64,000 nucleotides of DNA from Leptolyngbya sp. 'hensonii' (GTDB taxonomy: Bacteria > Cyanobacteriota > Cyanobacteriia > GCF-001939115). Both the position numbers and the translations under genes were made by a program. Of the stretch, positions 1,150 to 49,813 are shown one piece after another. Below the pieces are notes generated by a model. That model was not told the DNA's origin. It saw only the letters and a list, made by a program, of their open reading frames with translations, and did no database searches. The stretch spans positions 1 through 64,000 of the forward strand of contig NZ_MQTZ01000043.1 in assembly GCF_001939115.1 (NCBI RefSeq), given 5' to 3'. Each line of letters opens with the position of its first letter. Within the stretch, counting starts at the first letter, position 1.

Positions 1150-2205
1150 ATGACTGCAAGACAGCCCTCATTTTCTTCTGGTAAGGTTCCCATTCTCAGT
1201 ATTGATCTGGGTCGGACTTCCACGAAAACTTGTGTCAGTCGTGACCCGGAAGAGGTCGTTCTGATTCCGGCAAATGTGGCCCATCTGACGGTGGAGCAGG
1301 TTCGTCGGGGTGGGTTTGAATCCCGCCTGACGGATCCGTTGCTGGATATCTGGCTGGAGTACCAAGGCAAAGGGTACGCGATCGGCCAGTTGGCTGCAGA
1401 CTTTGGGGCTAACTTAGGGGTGGGCCAATCCAAAGTTGAAGATGCTCTGATCAAAGCCTTTGCCTGTGTTGGCCACTTCGACCTGCAGGATGACATTGGA
1501 GTCGTCCTGGGGTTGCCTTACCATTCTCAGGAACAGTTCGATCGAGAAAAAGAATTGGTCATTGGTTTGCTGCGGTCTCCCCATGTGATGCACTATCGGG
1601 GCGAAACCGTAAGCATCAATATTCGGCAGGTCTGGGTGGTGCCGGAAGGCTACGGCAGCCTGATCTGGTGTGAAGCCCAACAAAAAGGTACAGCAGGGGC
1701 AGGCTTGATTGATTTATCTGTAGCTGTTGTAGACATCGGGCATCAAACCACAGACTTCATCATGGCCGATCGGTTCCGGTTTGCTCGAGGGGCTTCTAAG
1801 AGTGAACCCTTTGCCATGAACCAGTTTTATGATCAGGTGGCAGCCCAGATTAGGGGAGCGGACAGCCAATCGCTGCTCCTAATTGAAGCAGTGAACCGTC
1901 CGGAAGGAGAACGGTTTTTCCGGCCCCGAGGGGAATCGCGTCCCACCGATCTGGATGAAATTCTGCCCAGCCTGCGGAAGAGTTTTGCCCGCGAGTTATG
2001 TAGCCGTCTGGTCAATTGGTTGCCAGAGCGAACCACAGATGTCGTGGTCACAGGTGGCGGCGGTGAGTTTTTCTGGGAAGACTTACAGCTTCTCCTGAAA
2101 GAGGCCCACCTACAGGCTCACCTGGCCCAGCCCTGTCGGAAGGCCAATGCCCTAGGGCAATTTATTTATGGGCAAGTGCAGATGGCAGCAGCCAGCAGAG
2201 GATAA
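1150..2205 (+). CDS. ParM/StbA-like actin-family ATPase
   Basis: Actin-fold protein of 351 residues, the usual ParM/Alp size. The nucleotide-binding signatures are visible: phosphate-1 loop SIDLGRTSTK (residues about 17-26), phosphate-2 loop VVDIGHQTTDF (about 193-203) and adenosine motif VVTGGGGEFF (about 298-307). ParM proteins polymerise with ATP and push plasmids apart through a ParR adaptor bound to parC. The next gene, 36 bp downstream on the same strand, has an N-terminal ribbon-helix-helix-like segment and a long coiled coil, so the two look like a ParM/ParR-type pair. No plasmid replication genes are nearby, so the system is chromosomal and may be repurposed, for instance as a cytoskeleton. 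No strong Shine-Dalgarno precedes the start. Confidence 0.85.
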   Translation: MTARQPSFSSGKVPILSIDLGRTSTKTCVSRDPEEVVLIPANVAHLTVEQVRRGGFESRLTDPLLDIWLEYQGKGYAIGQLAADFGANLGVGQSKVEDALIKAFACVGHFDLQDDIGVVLGLPYHSQEQFDREKELVIGLLRSPHVMHYRGETVSINIRQVWVVPEGYGSLIWCEAQQKGTAGAGLIDLSVAVVDIGHQTTDFIMADRFRFARGASKSEPFAMNQFYDQVAAQIRGADSQSLLLIEAVNRPEGERFFRPRGESRPTDLDEILPSLRKSFARELCSRLVNWLPERTTDVVVTGGGGEFFWEDLQLLLKEAHLQAHLAQPCRKANALGQFIYGQVQMAAASRG

Positions 2206-2241
2206 TCCACAGCATAATAGGGCGAGTTAGGGCAGAATCAG

Positions 2242-3198
2242 ATGGCAGCACCAACCAAAAAGACCAGTAGTAAATCCGTTACCTTCAGCCAGGATGCAGC
2301 TGATCAGACCCTTCTGGCAGCGATCGAAGAAGAGATCTCGGATGGGCATTTTGCCAGCTTTAGTGAATTGTGCAAGCAGGCCCTCCAGTATTTTCTCTTT
2401 GAGGAGGAGACTCCTGCTGCAACAGATCCGACTCAGGTAGGCCAGACCCTGGCTCAGCTACAAAGCCAGTTCACTGGCCTGGGGCAGCAGATGGAGCAGA
2501 TGGAAGCTGAACTTAAGCAATCTCTCTCTAAACCTTCATCTGATTCAGTTTCAGATGAAGTATCCCATCTCACTCAGCAAATTAAGCAGATCGATACTCG
2601 CATCAGCCAGCAACTGACCCAACTGCAGCGACAATTGGATGATTTTGAGCCAGGAGCAGGCTCGGGGATCGATCCAAAGCAATTTCGCCAGTTGGAAAAC
2701 CAGATCAGTTATTTGACGCAGCAGATCGATCAAATCGATGGCAGCACGAATCAATTGCTCTCTCAGGTGGAAAACCTGACTGGTCTTGAACCCCGTGGTG
2801 GAGTAGACGCGGGATCAGATTCCTTGAGCCAGATCGAGGATCTGGTAACAGACCTGATGCGAAAAGTGGAGCAGATGGAAGCCAAGACCGATCGCTTCCT
2901 GGGGCAGCTCCAACAGGCGCTGGCAGAACCAGAAGTGGAGGAGGAGGATACGGAGGAGATCTCGCCCGAAGCGGAACTCCTGGAGCAGGTGGAGGTTCGT
3001 CTGGCTGAGTTACTTGATCGGCTGGAGCGGACGGTAACTAGTCGTGAGGCAGGGGCAGTGCGGGCCGCCCGGCGATCGGGGGTGGAGGAACCGGAGGATC
3101 TGCAGGAGTCTCTCGTGGAACCGGAGAAATCAGAAGCGGCGGATCAGGATGCCGATCCGTTGTTGAGCCGGTTCAGCGCCCTGTTGGAGGATTTCTAG
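2242..3198 (+). CDS. ParR-like adaptor: ribbon-helix-helix-type N-terminus plus long coiled coil
   Basis: 318 residues. Residues about 12-55 follow the ribbon-helix-helix pattern: a short strand around KSVTFSQ, then two helices with the FASFSELCKQALQYFL signature seen in ParR/CopG-like DNA-binding proteins. Residues about 65-265 are a Gln/Glu-rich coiled coil with repeated QLxxQL and QMEQMEAE heptads. The tail is acidic and ends in DPLLSRFSALLEDF, a candidate amphipathic helix. ParR proteins bind the ends of ParM filaments through a C-terminal peptide, so this tail is the likely contact, or a membrane anchor. The protein is much longer than plasmid ParR (about 110 residues) because of the coiled coil. 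Function is inferred from pairing with the actin gene 36 bp upstream. Confidence 0.65.
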   Translation: MAAPTKKTSSKSVTFSQDAADQTLLAAIEEEISDGHFASFSELCKQALQYFLFEEETPAATDPTQVGQTLAQLQSQFTGLGQQMEQMEAELKQSLSKPSSDSVSDEVSHLTQQIKQIDTRISQQLTQLQRQLDDFEPGAGSGIDPKQFRQLENQISYLTQQIDQIDGSTNQLLSQVENLTGLEPRGGVDAGSDSLSQIEDLVTDLMRKVEQMEAKTDRFLGQLQQALAEPEVEEEDTEEISPEAELLEQVEVRLAELLDRLERTVTSREAGAVRAARRSGVEEPEDLQESLVEPEKSEAADQDADPLLSRFSALLEDF

Positions 3199-25108: not shown

Positions 25109-25269
25109 TGGTGCAGTTATGAAACGAATCAGCCAGAATAGAGTACAGGATGGCGGAGACTGAATAATCTGGACCTGGGCTATAGGTCAATTCTGAGGAT
25201 TAAGTTAATATTAGTTAACATAGTAAAACAAAGGTCTCCGCACCATAACGAGAAGGAGGATAGACCTCG

Positions 25270-27111
25270 GTGAATAAACGGTGGAGAAATGCAGGATTAT
25301 ATGCCCTGCTGGCTATAGTTGTCGTTGCACTGGCAACTGCATTGCTGGATAAACCCAATTCCTCTGCCCAGGAAAAGTGGCGGTATAGCCAATTTATTCA
25401 AGCAGTCGAAAATAATAAAGTTGCGAAGGTCGAGCTCAGCAGCGATCGATCGTTCGCCAAGGTAAAAACTCAGGATGGCAGTACGGTTTCGGTTAACCTG
25501 CTCAACGATCCGGAACTGATTGATACCCTGTATCGCAAGAATGTCGAGATTTCAGTGTCTCGTCAACAGGATGACGGGTTCTGGTTAAAAGCCCTGAGCA
25601 GCTTGTTCTTCCCAATCCTGCTCCTAGTGGGTCTATTTTTCCTGTTACGACGGGCCCAAAGCGGTCCGGGTAGTCAGGCGATGAATTTTGGCAAGTCCAA
25701 AGCCAGAGTTCAGATGGAGCCCCAGACTCAGGTAACGTTCGGAGATGTGGCCGGGATTGACCAGGCCAAGCTGGAACTGACCGAAGTGGTGGACTTCCTC
25801 AAGAATGCTGATCGCTTCACTGCGATCGGAGCCAAGATTCCCAAGGGCGTGCTGCTGGTTGGGCCTCCGGGTACCGGAAAAACCCTGCTGGCCCGTGCGG
25901 TTGCGGGTGAAGCTGGGGTGCCTTTCTTCTCGATTTCTGGATCCGAGTTTGTGGAGATGTTTGTCGGGGTCGGGGCTTCCCGCGTGCGAGACCTGTTTGA
26001 GCAGGCGAAGGCCAATGCACCCTGTATTGTCTTCATTGATGAAATTGATGCCGTTGGGCGGCAACGGGGTGCTGGTCTGGGTGGCGGCAATGATGAGCGG
26101 GAACAAACCCTCAACCAGTTACTGACGGAGATGGATGGCTTCGAGGGCAACACGGGGATTATCGTGATTGCTGCGACCAACCGCCCTGATGTTCTGGATG
26201 CTGCCCTGCTGCGACCAGGGCGATTCGATCGCCAGGTGGTGGTTGATCGGCCTGATTATGCCGGTCGTCTGGAAATTCTGCAAGTTCACTCTCGTGGCAA
26301 GATCCTGTCCAAGGATGTGGATCTGGAGAAGATCGCCCGTCGGACCCCTGGCTTCACGGGGGCAGATCTATCCAACCTGCTGAATGAGGCTGCGATTCTG
26401 GCGGCCCGTCGGAACCTGACCGAAATCTCCATGGATGAGGTGAATGACGCGATCGATCGGGTGCTCGCCGGTCCAGAGAAGAAAGATCGGGTGATGAGCG
26501 AAAAGCGGAAGCAATTGGTGGCTTACCACGAAGCAGGCCATGCGATCGTCGGTGCCCTGATGCCTGATTATGATCCGGTGCAGAAGATCAGTATTATTCC
26601 CCGTGGTCGGGCTGGTGGTCTGACCTGGTTCACCCCCAGTGAAGATCGGGTGGATTCCGGCCTCTTCAGTCGTTCCTACCTGCAAAACCAAATGGCCGTG
26701 GCCCTGGGCGGTCGGATTGCAGAAGAGATTATCTTTGGGGAAGAGGAAGTCACCACCGGGGCTTCCGATGACCTGCAGCGGGTGGCCCGTTGTGCCCGTC
26801 AGATGGTGACCCGTTTCGGCATGAGCGACAAACTGGGGCCTGTGGCTCTAGGACGCCAGCAGGGCAACATGTTTCTGGGCCGGGATATCGCCGCTGAGCG
26901 GGATTTTTCGGAGGAGACCGCCGCCATGATCGACGAAGAAGTCCAGGTTCTGGTCGAAGAAGCCTACAAGCGGGCGAAGGCGGTGTTGATTCGGAACCGG
27001 GCGGTGCTAGACCAATTGGCTGCCATGCTGGTAGACAAGGAAACCGTAGACTCGGAAGAGTTACAGGAACTTCTGACCAACAATGATGTTCAGGTCGCAG
27101 CTCTGGCCTAG
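25270..27111 (+). CDS. ftsH: FtsH3-type ATP-dependent zinc metalloprotease
   Basis: 613 residues, complete. GTG start with AGAAGGAGG just upstream. Order: membrane helix at about 8-25, FtsH extracellular domain, membrane helix at about 105-125, AAA domain with Walker A GPPGTGKT and Walker [36 protein letters not shown], then the peptidase with zinc site HEAGH and the later Asp in [11 protein letters not shown]. The N-terminus [18 protein letters not shown] matches my recollection of Synechocystis Slr1604 (FtsH3), the common partner of both the thylakoid FtsH2 and plasma-membrane FtsH1 hexamers. The window thus holds a likely FtsH2 and FtsH3 pair 25 kb apart. Confidence 0.95.
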
Positions 27112-44575: not shown

Positions 44576-46275
44576 GATTGTCGAGTTGCAGGTACGGAGA
44601 TGAATGGAATGCCCCACTGAAAACGGGCAGTCAGATAATCGCCCTGACGCCACAGGAGGCCGAACCCTCCGGCAAACAGGGTATTGGGTTGCAGGTCGGC
44701 TCGACCGGTATTCCAAACGGTGCCAAAGTCTAAAAAGGGCGTGAGCTGGAGCAGGCCATCTACCTCAGGCACTCGCAGCACGGGGATGCGAAACTCAGCC
44801 GAGATCAGCGCCCCGTTGTCCCCGAGAACGAAGTCTCGCCGGTATCCTCGGACGGTGCTGGGGCCGCCAAAACTGATTTGCTCCAGGGGCACCAAAGCCC
44901 GATCGGCCAGTTGCAAATCCGTGCGCAGAATGGCCAGGGTATCGGGGGCCAGCAACCGGATGTACTGAGCCTGCCCTCGCCAACTGAAGAAACGGCTATC
45001 GGGCGGGGTGGCATTGATCGTATCCCCCAGCAGGTTCAGGCCCAGGCTGAACTGGGAATAGGCTGCAAATACCTCCTCGCTACCCCGCTGGGAATATTCC
45101 TGGAAGAAGCGCAGGGCTGAGATCCGGGTTTCCCCCCGATCGTTGGCTCCGATCGCCAGGGGAAAGGGAAAGCCCAGGAGAGCGGTTTCGGTTTCCTGAT
45201 GGTTCACGGTCATGCCCACCGCAATTTCCTGGGAGGGGGTTCTCAGCACAGGCTGCCGCACACTCAGTTCATAGATGCGGGAGGCCGCAGTGATATCCAG
45301 GATGCTGAAGGGGGTTTCAATCACCCTGCTGGAGGTGGTGGCATACAGCAGCCTCAGGCTGGTGTTGTAGGGACTGAGGGGGATGTTATAGCTGACGGTC
45401 AGACCGTTGCTACCATCCGTATTGGTGTAGTCCAGGCTGATGCTGTCTCCCAAGCCCAGCAGATTGGCCTGGGAAACCTGAATTCCCCGTTGTTCACTGC
45501 CAACACCGGGGGAGCGGCTATTGTCGAAACTCAGTTGGGCTCGGAAGGTTTTCGCTTCACTCACTTGAACATTGAGAATGCTTTTCCCCGGCGTGGGACT
45601 GGCCGACAATTCCGCCGAGATGTTGGCAATCAGGGGATCCAGCTTCAGCAATTGTAACGCTTCCATCACCCGGTTGATATTGAGGGGAGGATCTGCCGCG
45701 ATCGCCAGACGACTCTCGATATAGCCTGGGTCTAACCGCTGGGTTCCTTTGACCTGAATGGATTCCAGACTTCCCTCCAGAACCTGGATTTTGACCACTC
45801 CCCCCTGGGGCTGGAAAGACTGATTCGTGGGGATAAAAGCCCCTGAATTCACATATCCCTGGCTGGTATAGAGCCGGGTCACGGCATCGGCTGCCTGGAT
45901 CAGCTCCGTAGTGGTCAGGGTCCTGTTGGTGAACTGAGCCGTCACCTCTGCAAGTTTTTCTGGAGGAAAGAGGGTGCTGCCCACCACCTCAAAGCGGGTG
46001 ACGGTGATGGCACTGGGTGGGGCAATGGGAGGCTGCCCCAGAATGGACTGTCCCACTATCTGACCTACGACTTGGCCTGCAATCAACGAATCCCGCTCCA
46101 GAAACTGGCTGAAATAGATGGGTTGAAAGGAAGGTTGAGGCTGTAGATTGTTCGTGACAGGGTTAGAAATCCCTGATTCAGCCCAGGCTGGCTGCCTCTG
46201 ACCACTGCAGGCCAGCACTATTAGCCATCCCAGGACGTAAAGCCAGTAGTTGTGGCCAGAGCTATTCACGGTCAT
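44521..46275 (-). CDS. TpsB outer-membrane transporter (ShlB/FhaC family)
   Basis: 584 residues from ATG at 46275; a TTG start eight codons upstream is also possible. Signal peptide LYVLGWLIVLACSG. POTRA-type domains at about 90-240 (ITVTRFEVVGSTLFPPEKL, SIQVKGTQRLDPGYIESRL), then a 16-stranded FhaC-type barrel with the lid-lock motif STVRGYRRDF. It should secrete the TpsA protein encoded just upstream, with which it overlaps by 14 bp. The CHAT gene follows with overlap. Confidence 0.92.
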   Translation of the reverse strand: MTVNSSGHNYWLYVLGWLIVLACSGQRQPAWAESGISNPVTNNLQPQPSFQPIYFSQFLERDSLIAGQVVGQIVGQSILGQPPIAPPSAITVTRFEVVGSTLFPPEKLAEVTAQFTNRTLTTTELIQAADAVTRLYTSQGYVNSGAFIPTNQSFQPQGGVVKIQVLEGSLESIQVKGTQRLDPGYIESRLAIAADPPLNINRVMEALQLLKLDPLIANISAELSASPTPGKSILNVQVSEAKTFRAQLSFDNSRSPGVGSEQRGIQVSQANLLGLGDSISLDYTNTDGSNGLTVSYNIPLSPYNTSLRLLYATTSSRVIETPFSILDITAASRIYELSVRQPVLRTPSQEIAVGMTVNHQETETALLGFPFPLAIGANDRGETRISALRFFQEYSQRGSEEVFAAYSQFSLGLNLLGDTINATPPDSRFFSWRGQAQYIRLLAPDTLAILRTDLQLADRALVPLEQISFGGPSTVRGYRRDFVLGDNGALISAEFRIPVLRVPEVDGLLQLTPFLDFGTVWNTGRADLQPNTLFAGGFGLLWRQGDYLTARFQWGIPFISVPATRQSWQENGLYFSIVYTPFTF

Positions 46276-49200
46276 AACAACGCTTTTTCGCAGCTTCAAT
46301 CATCCAGGCAACCTTTCCCTGATCAGGCAGCAGAGCCGTTGGTTGAACCGGAATAGCGATGCCAGGCAGCCGGGTGTCTTCCAAAGTCGCATCACTGGTA
46401 AGCAATTCACCAGGATTCGCGGGCAGTCCCCCCTGCCCCAACAGAACAAAGCGACCTGTAGTTGCCACAGCCGGTCCTCCACAACCCTGCGCCACCAACC
46501 GGGAAGCATCCACCAGATCCCCAGGTAAAGGCCCCAAGCCCTTGCTGGGGTCAACGCCCGGTGTGTTGATGATGACCACACCGTTCACCCCAAAGGTTGA
46601 GCTGGCAGTGATGTCGTTCGTAGTATTGACTTGAGGGGTGGTCAGGGCAGATTGATAAGCAATCCCAAAAAGAGCCTGGGCGGTGATCTGGATATTCCCC
46701 CCCTTGCCCAAGAAGGCATTGGCGGTGATGTCGCTATTTTGATTGGGCAGGGCTACCAGAAACAGGGTAGAGATGGTGATATTCCCCCCGTCTCCTGCAC
46801 CGCCGGTAATCCCCGATGTGGCTGAAATCTGACTGTTATTGGTCATCTGGATAATCCCCGGGACAGTCAGGAAAATATTGCCCCCCTGGGTACTGGAACT
46901 GGTGGCAACAATCTTGCCATTGTTCAGCGTCAGATTATTAGCCTGCAGGAAAATACTGCCCCCCGGTCCCGATCCCTGGCTGTTCACAGAAATTGTGGCT
47001 CCATTGGTGAGGATGACCAGGTTGGGGTCAATTTTGATATCTCCCCCCTTGCCGGTAGCCCCTGCGATCGTATTGGCAAAAATCCCGGTGCCGTCCCCAT
47101 CGATGGCAATTTGATCCGTCACATTGATAACAATCGTGCCCGCATCCCCCTGCCCTGCTGTCCTGGCAATGATTTTGGCTCCACTGTCCAGCTTGAGGGT
47201 GTTGGCCTGGACCTGAATCATCCCGCCCATCCCGGACTTGCCATTACTGACACTGGAATCGATCGAAGATTGGTCAGACAGGTAAACCTGGTTAGCCCAC
47301 ACTGAAACTTGACTGGCTGTGCCTGTCCCCTCGGTCTGGGAGAACAGGGTGGAAACCTTGCTAAGGGTGAGGGTGCCGGTCTGGATCGTGACAGTTCCGC
47401 CGCTGCCACTGGCATCCAGAGCCACCCGGTTTCTGATGGTGGCATTGTTCAGCTCGATCGAGGTGGTGCCTTTGAGCAGGATATCGCCAGACTTGCCTGT
47501 GCCCAACTGGGCATTCTCAGAACTCACGGTTGCCCCATCCAGCAGTTGAATCTGGTTGGCCTGGATTTCAATTTTACCGGCGTTGCCCGTGCCGCCCTGA
47601 ATGGCCACATTACTGGCCACCGATCCTCCAATCAGTTGCAACGTTCCATCCACCTGGATATTGATATTGCTGGCGTTGGCCGCACCGGTTCCCGTACTGC
47701 TGGTGGAGATCAGGGTACCGGTACCATAGAAATTCTTGGCCTGGATGATGATGTCACTTCCCTGAGAACCCTGACTCTCGTTGGCGATCTGGTTCTTACC
47801 TTTGGCCAGAATATCGCCCTGACTCTGCAGGGTAATCAGGCCACCCTGAACCCCGGCACTGGTAATCCCACTGGCTGCCCCTGGATTGGCCAGCATCTCG
47901 ATATTCCCACCGCTCAGAACCGTGACCGTTCCTCCATTGCCCGGATTTTGGGTCTGCAGGGCGGAGGCATTAATCACCCGCAGGGTAATCCCGCTCTTGG
48001 ACTGCATCAGCACGTTGCCCCCATTCCCGGCAAAACTGCTGACGTTGGTTGTTGCAGTCGAGATCGGTCCATTGGCCAGCACGGTGACCTGACCTCCATT
48101 GCGAACGGTTGCAGCACCAACTGTAGCAGCGGCTGAGATTGATCCGTTAGTACTCAGCCCCGTTGCCCCCAGGGTTGTCACAGCGCCACGGGAGTCAATC
48201 ACCACCGTGCCCCCATTGGTGGCATTGCTGCTGACATTGATATTGTTAGTTGTGATATCCCCCGATAGCAGGGGATTGGCACTGTACTGATTGGTCAGAT
48301 AGACCAGGGCTGGATTAGCAACAGGTGCATTCGAAATGGTAATCGCACCGGTTTTAATATTGGATCCCGTCAGGGTTGGCGTCTGGAGCGTATTGGGGGT
48401 AAAACCAGCCAGGGGAGGAGCCGTTGACGTGGGCTGCTGTCCATTAAAGGGGGCCTGGTTCCAATCAATTCCGGCCCGGATGTCGAGGGTACGCTGGGTA
48501 TCACCGCCGATCGTCAAATCGGTGCCATTAGAGAGCTTGACCGCGCTGAGGGCATTATAGGGAATCGTTGTCCCCGGCAGTAAGTTGGTATTGCTGGGGT
48601 TAATCGTGGTGGTCTGAGTCCCGATCGCATTAATGGTAATGTTGCCGGTTTCTACACTCCCACCTGCCAGGATGTGCAGAGAGGCCCCCACGTAATTGCC
48701 AAGCTTCACATTCCCGATTGCCAGAATGATGGGGTCATTCGGGCTGATAACATCGCCCTGGCTGCCATCCAGTTGTTCCACTTTCAGATCCCGACCAGCA
48801 AAGAAACGGCCATCCCCTGTGACCGGATTGGCCGATCGTAGTATTAAATCTTGCCCTGCCACCAGGATGCTACCAGGATGCTGCAGGGCTGTGATATCTA
48901 GACTGCTGTTGCCCTGAATCTGTAAGTTCTCCCCGGCAAAGATCTGCAGGGGCGCGATCGGACTGTCGCTGATTTTGACCATGCCCTGGGCCTGCAGGGT
49001 GAGGTTTCCGGTGGTATTGAGGGTACTGCTGGGCAGAATCAGGTCTTGCTGAGCGGTCAGGGTGGCAGTTTGAGCAGTCAGAGTCTGGACCTGCACATTC
49101 CCCACCACGGATTCCACAGTGACCTGGCCCTGCAGGGCGGTCAACTGGCCTGTACTGGTCACTGAACTACCGGACAGGGTCAGGTCCTGACCCACTTTTA

Positions 49201-49813
49201 AGTCCCCTGCGTTGACGATCGCCCCCGTGGGCAGATTGCCAAACTGCACCCCGATCGGGACGTTCACGGTCAGCAGGGGCGGAGCCTGGGGATTAACTGC
49301 ACTGAATTCCCCGCTACTGCCCAGGGTGAGGCGATCGGCAGTGCTGGCGACAAAGGAACCACTGATATCCAGGCGAGAATTTGGTCCAAAGTAAATGCCA
49401 TTGGGATTAATCAGAAACAAATTGGCATTGCCCAGCACACCCAGGGTGCCTAAGATTTGAGAGGCCTGAGAGCCCGTAACCCGGCTGAGGATATTCTGGA
49501 TCCCAGCCGGATTATTGAAATAGACTTGCTGGCCATTGCCCACATTAAACTGTTGAAAGCTTTGAAACAGAAAGCTCCCCTGTTGCGCCCCTCCCTGAAT
49601 TAGGGTGGATGGGAGTCCTTTGATCTCAACACCGGGGGTCACGATGGAGGGGGTTGAACCCAAGGTATTATCTGGGACAATCTGAGCAAGGGCGCTCATC
49701 TGCACATTGAGCAGAAAACCGGAAATCAGGGCAGTACTGAGGGCCAGAGACAGCCGATGAAACCTGTTCCCATCGATCGGAGTGCTGAAGCCAGCTAATT
49801 TTCCGGAAATCAT
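46262..49813 (-). CDS. TpsA filamentous haemagglutinin-like exoprotein
   Basis: 1183 residues. Extended signal peptide (LSLALSTALISGFLLNVQMS, cleavage near ALAQ). The TPS secretion domain at about 45-260 has FQQFNVGNGQQVYFNNPAGI, ILSRVTG and the hallmark NLFLINPNGIYFGPN. The rest is a long right-handed beta-helix of repeats rich in Gly, Asn, Thr and Ser (GSGGTVTIQTGTLTL, GGNIFLTVPGIIQMTNN). The C-terminal region has LVAQGCGG and LPANPGELL, typical of cyanobacterial TpsA. It is exported by the downstream TpsB to the cell surface. Confidence 0.93.
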   Translation of the reverse strand: MISGKLAGFSTPIDGNRFHRLSLALSTALISGFLLNVQMSALAQIVPDNTLGSTPSIVTPGVEIKGLPSTLIQGGAQQGSFLFQSFQQFNVGNGQQVYFNNPAGIQNILSRVTGSQASQILGTLGVLGNANLFLINPNGIYFGPNSRLDISGSFVASTADRLTLGSSGEFSAVNPQAPPLLTVNVPIGVQFGNLPTGAIVNAGDLKVGQDLTLSGSSVTSTGQLTALQGQVTVESVVGNVQVQTLTAQTATLTAQQDLILPSSTLNTTGNLTLQAQGMVKISDSPIAPLQIFAGENLQIQGNSSLDITALQHPGSILVAGQDLILRSANPVTGDGRFFAGRDLKVEQLDGSQGDVISPNDPIILAIGNVKLGNYVGASLHILAGGSVETGNITINAIGTQTTTINPSNTNLLPGTTIPYNALSAVKLSNGTDLTIGGDTQRTLDIRAGIDWNQAPFNGQQPTSTAPPLAGFTPNTLQTPTLTGSNIKTGAITISNAPVANPALVYLTNQYSANPLLSGDITTNNINVSSNATNGGTVVIDSRGAVTTLGATGLSTNGSISAAATVGAATVRNGGQVTVLANGPISTATTNVSSFAGNGGNVLMQSKSGITLRVINASALQTQNPGNGGTVTVLSGGNIEMLANPGAASGITSAGVQGGLITLQSQGDILAKGKNQIANESQGSQGSDIIIQAKNFYGTGTLISTSSTGTGAANASNINIQVDGTLQLIGGSVASNVAIQGGTGNAGKIEIQANQIQLLDGATVSSENAQLGTGKSGDILLKGTTSIELNNATIRNRVALDASGSGGTVTIQTGTLTLSKVSTLFSQTEGTGTASQVSVWANQVYLSDQSSIDSSVSNGKSGMGGMIQVQANTLKLDSGAKIIARTAGQGDAGTIVINVTDQIAIDGDGTGIFANTIAGATGKGGDIKIDPNLVILTNGATISVNSQGSGPGGSIFLQANNLTLNNGKIVATSSSTQGGNIFLTVPGIIQMTNNSQISATSGITGGAGDGGNITISTLFLVALPNQNSDITANAFLGKGGNIQITAQALFGIAYQSALTTPQVNTTNDITASSTFGVNGVVIINTPGVDPSKGLGPLPGDLVDASRLVAQGCGGPAVATTGRFVLLGQGGLPANPGELLTSDATLEDTRLPGIAIPVQPTALLPDQGKVAWMIEAAKKRCYDRE

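Follow-up and report, generated by a model that had tools for sequence, protein, structure and literature searches.

One question raised by the locus described here is whether a bacterial actin of the ParM type, encoded directly upstream of a ParR-like partner in the cyanobacterium Leptolyngbya sp. 'hensonii', segregates DNA, as plasmid partition pairs do, or serves as a cytoskeleton of the cell. The window, by which we mean the whole stretch of 64,000 nucleotides that was analysed (assembly GCF_001939115.1, contig NZ_MQTZ01000043.1, positions 1 to 64,000), carries the pair near its start. A sequence-only reading had taken the two genes for a DNA-segregation pair domesticated on the chromosome, possibly as a cytoskeleton, and had pointed to recent work on a chromosomal ParMR-type pair acting in cell shape in a multicellular cyanobacterium.

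Identity of the gene pair

The two open reading frames lie next to each other on the same strand with a 36-bp gap between them, just as they had been read:

1150–2205, + strand: fcmB/corM, ParM-type bacterial actin of 351 aa
2242–3198, + strand: fcmC/corR, ParR-derived partner of 318 aa

FcmB scores 639 bits against the NCBIfam equivalog NF052678, far over the cut-off of 300, and the whole FcmC protein scores 98.9 bits against the equivalog NF052682, a narrow pass (cut-off 90) that counts slightly against the assignment; in the genome search the best single stretch of FcmC reached 70.4 bits and so stayed under the cut-off of 90, because the spacer of this protein is expanded. On these sequence matches the window pair are orthologues of FcmB/FcmC of Nostoc punctiforme and of CorM/CorR of Anabaena PCC 7120. 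The best match of FcmB in a sequence search of the PDB is CorM from Anabaena PCC 7120 (9rmi, E = 2.1e-155), the entry of which is described as 'CorM filament in the presence of CorR'. CorMR of this strain, described by Springstein et al. 2025 (doi 10.1101/2025.06.27.661541), is reportedly the same kind of system as FcmBC, and, given the cross-matches, the names CorM/CorR and FcmB/FcmC would seem to denote a single system. The passing of both equivalog cut-offs and the match to the CorM filament together uphold the proposal of a ParMR-type pair that the chromosome has taken over to serve as a cytoskeleton.

FcmB and FcmC were published for N. punctiforme in mSphere in 2025 (PMC12645912), and this is the cell-shape pair to which the earlier reading had pointed. 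Deletion of either fcmB or fcmC in N. punctiforme gives wide, round cells, showing that the pair is needed for rod shape; at the membrane, FcmB assembles into filaments that encircle the cell, while FcmC interacts with FcmB and is needed for its membrane localisation (PMC12645912). The window pair is thus an orthologue of an already known system, its adaptor being expanded.

FcmB and the other actins of the genome

The nucleotide-binding motifs of an actin are all intact in FcmB, viz. phosphate-1 (IDLGRTSTK), phosphate-2 (VVDIGHQTTDF) and adenosine (VTGGGGEFF), and their key residues are invariant in 27 orthologues, which confirms what had been noticed in the translation. Identity of FcmB among orthologues is 64–78%, and the protein matches Pfam ALP_N with E = 7.5e-17. 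The AlphaFold2 model has the actin fold on which the earlier reading depended (mean pLDDT 85), and its first PDB match in a fold search is again CorM 9rmi, with 66% identity in the fold alignment, followed by ParM and Alp7A at 14–18% identity.

Two further actins are encoded in the same genome. A search for MreB returned a protein on contig C21 with 497.5 bits (cut-off 365.75), and the window locus was not among the matches of this search, so that FcmB is not a member of the MreB family. A separate plasmid-type ParM of 394 aa is encoded on the 26.9-kb contig C23 (L090, 7051–10022) together with a 131-aa downstream partner, a nearby ParA and an integrase-like gene; this contig is probably a plasmid or an integrated element. 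In a maximum-likelihood tree the window FcmB groups with those of Moorena and of a Xenococcaceae metagenome-assembled genome (MAG) (support 100/98), and the plasmid-type ParM of the same genome falls far outside this group. Two ParM sequences on extremely long branches (length 10) land within FcmB in this tree, a misplacement that is to be disregarded.

Architecture of the partner FcmC

Three regions can be distinguished in FcmC:

2272–2403, + strand: N-terminal ribbon-helix-helix (RHH)-like domain, about residues 11–54, a conserved block with helices at 19–33 and 40–53 (pLDDT 81–90)
2428–3075, + strand: helical, coiled-coil-like spacer, about residues 63–278, with internal repeats of about 48 aa
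3154–3195, + strand: C-terminal amphipathic helix DPLLSRFSALLEDF with conserved residues (helix 306–317, hydrophobic moment 0.60)

Among FcmC orthologues the two ends of the protein are conserved, in contrast to the middle. At the N-terminus, a conserved block of about 45 residues (with V13, F15, L24, F40 and C44 conserved) runs from a strand-like KSVTF into two helices, a pattern compatible with an RHH fold, and the modelled helices fit the RHH-like N-terminus that had been proposed; Pfam and PDB profile searches, however, gave no RHH match to this region, and the monomer model has no strand there. Judged from the pattern and the ParR ancestry, the N-terminus is likely a ribbon-helix-helix. 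In the tail, D305, P306, R310 and L315 are near-invariant and F318 is invariant. The Pfam and PDB matches of full-length FcmC (baculovirus PEP, LXG, spike S2, a potassium channel and others) were rejected as coiled-coil cross-matches, and a fold search with the full model returned only helical bundles (best E 0.03), which is uninformative.

The earlier description of some 200 residues of coiled coil followed by an amphipathic tail is a fair one, since the AlphaFold2 model contains, besides the two short N-terminal helices, five long helices within residues 63–278 and one helix at the C-terminus. The spacer is similar to itself at an offset of 48 residues, the best pair of 30-aa segments scoring 61 compared to at most 51 in 100 shuffles that preserved hydrophobic class. 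Across the family FcmC ranges from 115 to about 350 aa, with most orthologues at 130–250 aa; it has about 160 aa in Nostocaceae, 240–245 in Moorena and 287–307 in others, and the window protein ranks with the longest sampled. The contrast drawn with plasmid ParR, of about 110 residues and without such a coiled coil, is real but not diagnostic: as most orthologues are of 130–250 aa and differ in the length of this region, the family as a whole is not marked by a long coiled coil. The coiled coil of FcmC is a length-variable spacer, built here from repeats of about 48 aa, which is a new detail.

The expanded FcmC could be taken to mean that the orthologous pair has diverged in function, the longer coiled coil making FcmC a scaffold that serves a different cargo or location and no longer a rod-shape factor. 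In favour of this, the 318-aa protein is long for the family and repeat-built, and it lacks the aromatic MFxW-type N-terminal segment present in Nostocaceae FcmC. We nevertheless regard such a change of function as very unlikely, considering the strong conservation of FcmB and of both ends of FcmC, and the existence of intermediate lengths in Moorena and other groups, which suggests that the spacer is tolerant.

Chromosomal setting

The locus lies on a contig of 279,282 bp in a genome of 5.94 Mb, together with ftsH, menC, menE, hemL, a second ftsH and the gene for EF-G. It is chromosomal, a plasmid location being rejected on account of the size and content of the contig, and the earlier statement that no replication gene is nearby holds among the window genes that were scanned. 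Further along the window (46262–49813, − strand) is a gene for a protein of 1183 aa, likely a large secreted adhesin, whose N-terminal domain is of the filamentous-haemagglutinin type.

The divergent neighbour of the pair is the following gene:

1–708, − strand: 5' part of ftsH, 236 aa, running off the window; its product is 76–88% identical in 21 other loci

In these 21 loci, which include Planktothrix, Lyngbya, Geitlerinema and several further families, ftsH is likewise divergent from fcmB. This synteny on chromosomes, that of Planktothrix rubescens included, answers the check on conservation that had been put forward and indicates a long residence there. Loci of the Nostocaceae type, of Moorena, of the Leptolyngbya PCC 7375 type and of the small-genome family yielded no ftsH next to fcmB. 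The conserved divergent ftsH–fcmBC neighbourhood is a new detail; the text of the paper that described FcmBC makes no mention of ftsH (PMC12645912).

Downstream of fcmB, an ORF of the fcmC type with the conserved C-terminal tail is present in 69 of 73 loci, the four exceptions being L012 and L068 (one organism), L086 (at a contig end) and L014. At L012 (2603–3892) and L068, fcmB has no adjacent fcmC and is followed instead by a gene for a helix-rich PRC-barrel protein of 430 aa, which could be a replacement partner.

The upstream gap and the question of a parC site

Partition by a ParMRC system would depend on a parC site near the genes, and the gap at 709–1149 had been singled out as the place to look for its direct repeats. 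Repeats in this gap are at or near chance, with no exact 8-mers observed and three 10-mers with one mismatch (mean 0.7 in shuffles, reached in 5 of 60), and no parC-like iterons are common to the window and six orthologous fcmB upstream regions. The expected iteron array was not found; the only repeat of note is an imperfect 15-bp direct repeat in two copies at 823–852, which coincides with a conserved element:

831–850, + strand: HLR1-like element TTAACTAAATTTAACNTAAT, overlapping the repeat and tied to ftsH, not to parC

With up to three mismatches, TTAACTAAATTTAACNTAAT is present in 20 of the 21 other loci that have an adjacent ftsH and in none of the loci without one. Elsewhere in the genome, at up to two mismatches, it recurs only once, at 25199–25218 (− strand); this copy precedes the second ftsH (at 25270) by 52 bp. 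In the direction of ftsH the element reads GTTAAATT-TA-GTTAAGTT, close to the HLR1 consensus of RpaB (KTTACAWW-N2-KTTACAWW), and ftsH2 and ftsH3 are RpaB targets (PMC13421787). Owing to its linkage to ftsH, the copy at the second ftsH and its likeness to HLR1, TTAACTAAATTTAACNTAAT is best read as a promoter element of the divergent ftsH.

That the pair is a functional ParMRC system, using a nearby parC to partition either the chromosome or a plasmid that has integrated, is highly improbable, for although the ParM homology of FcmB (PF17989; PRK13917 at 46 bits), the RHH-like N-terminus of FcmC and the upstream repeat would all suit it, that repeat has only two copies and falls on a promoter element confined to ftsH-adjacent loci, other fcmB upstream regions have no iterons in common, the contig of the locus is large and carries core genes, and nucleoid distribution is not altered in FcmBC mutants of N. 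punctiforme (PMC12645912).

Proposed function and comparison with known systems

Very probably, then, the window pair makes up the cell-shape cytoskeleton known as FcmBC (= CorMR) and not a device for DNA segregation, its filament, membrane and rod-shape functions being transferred by homology from N. punctiforme and Anabaena. None of the results obtained here speaks against this reading. FcmB, with its actin fold and nucleotide motifs, would bind ATP and, by analogy with CorM, polymerise into filaments. FcmC would dimerise or multimerise through its RHH-like domain and coiled coil. In plasmid ParR it is the C-terminal helix that contacts the actin, and the invariant C-terminal helix of FcmC may touch FcmB in the same manner. 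As in N. punctiforme, FcmC would anchor or cap the filaments and recruit them to the cell membrane, where, lying around the circumference, they may promote a rod shape, either by directing wall synthesis along the sides of the cell or through constriction. In the window FcmC, which lacks the MFxW-type segment, membrane contact may use another surface. The length of the spacer, we suggest, might set the reach between the anchoring N-terminal end and the filament-binding tail.

The window pair resembles FcmB/FcmC of N. punctiforme in gene order, chromosomal location and the conserved ends of FcmC, and CorM of Anabaena is its closest match in both sequence and structure. It departs from the FcmC model NF052682, which has 159 positions, in its 318 aa, repeat-built spacer and lack of an MFxW-like N-terminus, and from Nostocaceae loci in adjoining ftsH. 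With the plasmid systems ParM/ParR/parC (R1, pSK41, AlfA/Alp7A) it shares the actin fold, an operon of actin and small adaptor, probably of RHH type, and an adaptor tail that would bind the actin; unlike these, it is chromosomal, lacks parC and has a long adaptor spacer, and the proteins are only 12–18% identical in fold alignments. MreB, too, is folded as an actin and takes part in rod shape; FcmB is a distinct family in a genome that has its own MreB besides.

Distribution

The FcmB cut-off was passed in 62 of the 386 genomes sampled in the phylum. A diverged fcmBC pair, 58–60% identical, is found at five loci of a family with small genomes (G015, G034 and G048; 2.2–3.0 Mb). One of these, G034, is a single contig of 3,049,282 bp with a GC content of 52% at the locus, and a search of it for nifH gave nothing over the cut-off; we take these features to fit Gloeomargarita lithophora. 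Pairs were also seen on MAG contigs labelled Gloeomargaritaceae, Xenococcaceae and Thiomargarita (L065, L066 and L073), the first of them a 6-kb contig of low coverage (L065), and the Thiomargarita-labelled contig is presumably cyanobacterial contamination.

The FcmBC paper states that the system is absent from unicellular strains (PMC12645912), a statement that would be contradicted if the small-genome family is, as it may be, the unicellular Gloeomargarita; as MAG contigs can be misbinned, this is a lead only. More tentatively, and with rather less than even confidence, we propose that FcmBC extends beyond filamentous cyanobacteria to the small-genome family and the Gloeomargaritaceae and Xenococcaceae MAGs, which would be unicellular, that it predates or is independent of multicellularity, and that FcmC is a modular ruler whose length is set by duplication of the repeat of about 48 aa.

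Significance

The window pair provides an independent confirmation, far from the Nostoc lineage, of the conversion of a plasmid partition machine into a cell-shape cytoskeleton. The variation in spacer length, the ftsH neighbourhood and the possible unicellular carriers offer concrete, testable starting points for tracing the remodelling of the adaptor and the origin of the system in time.
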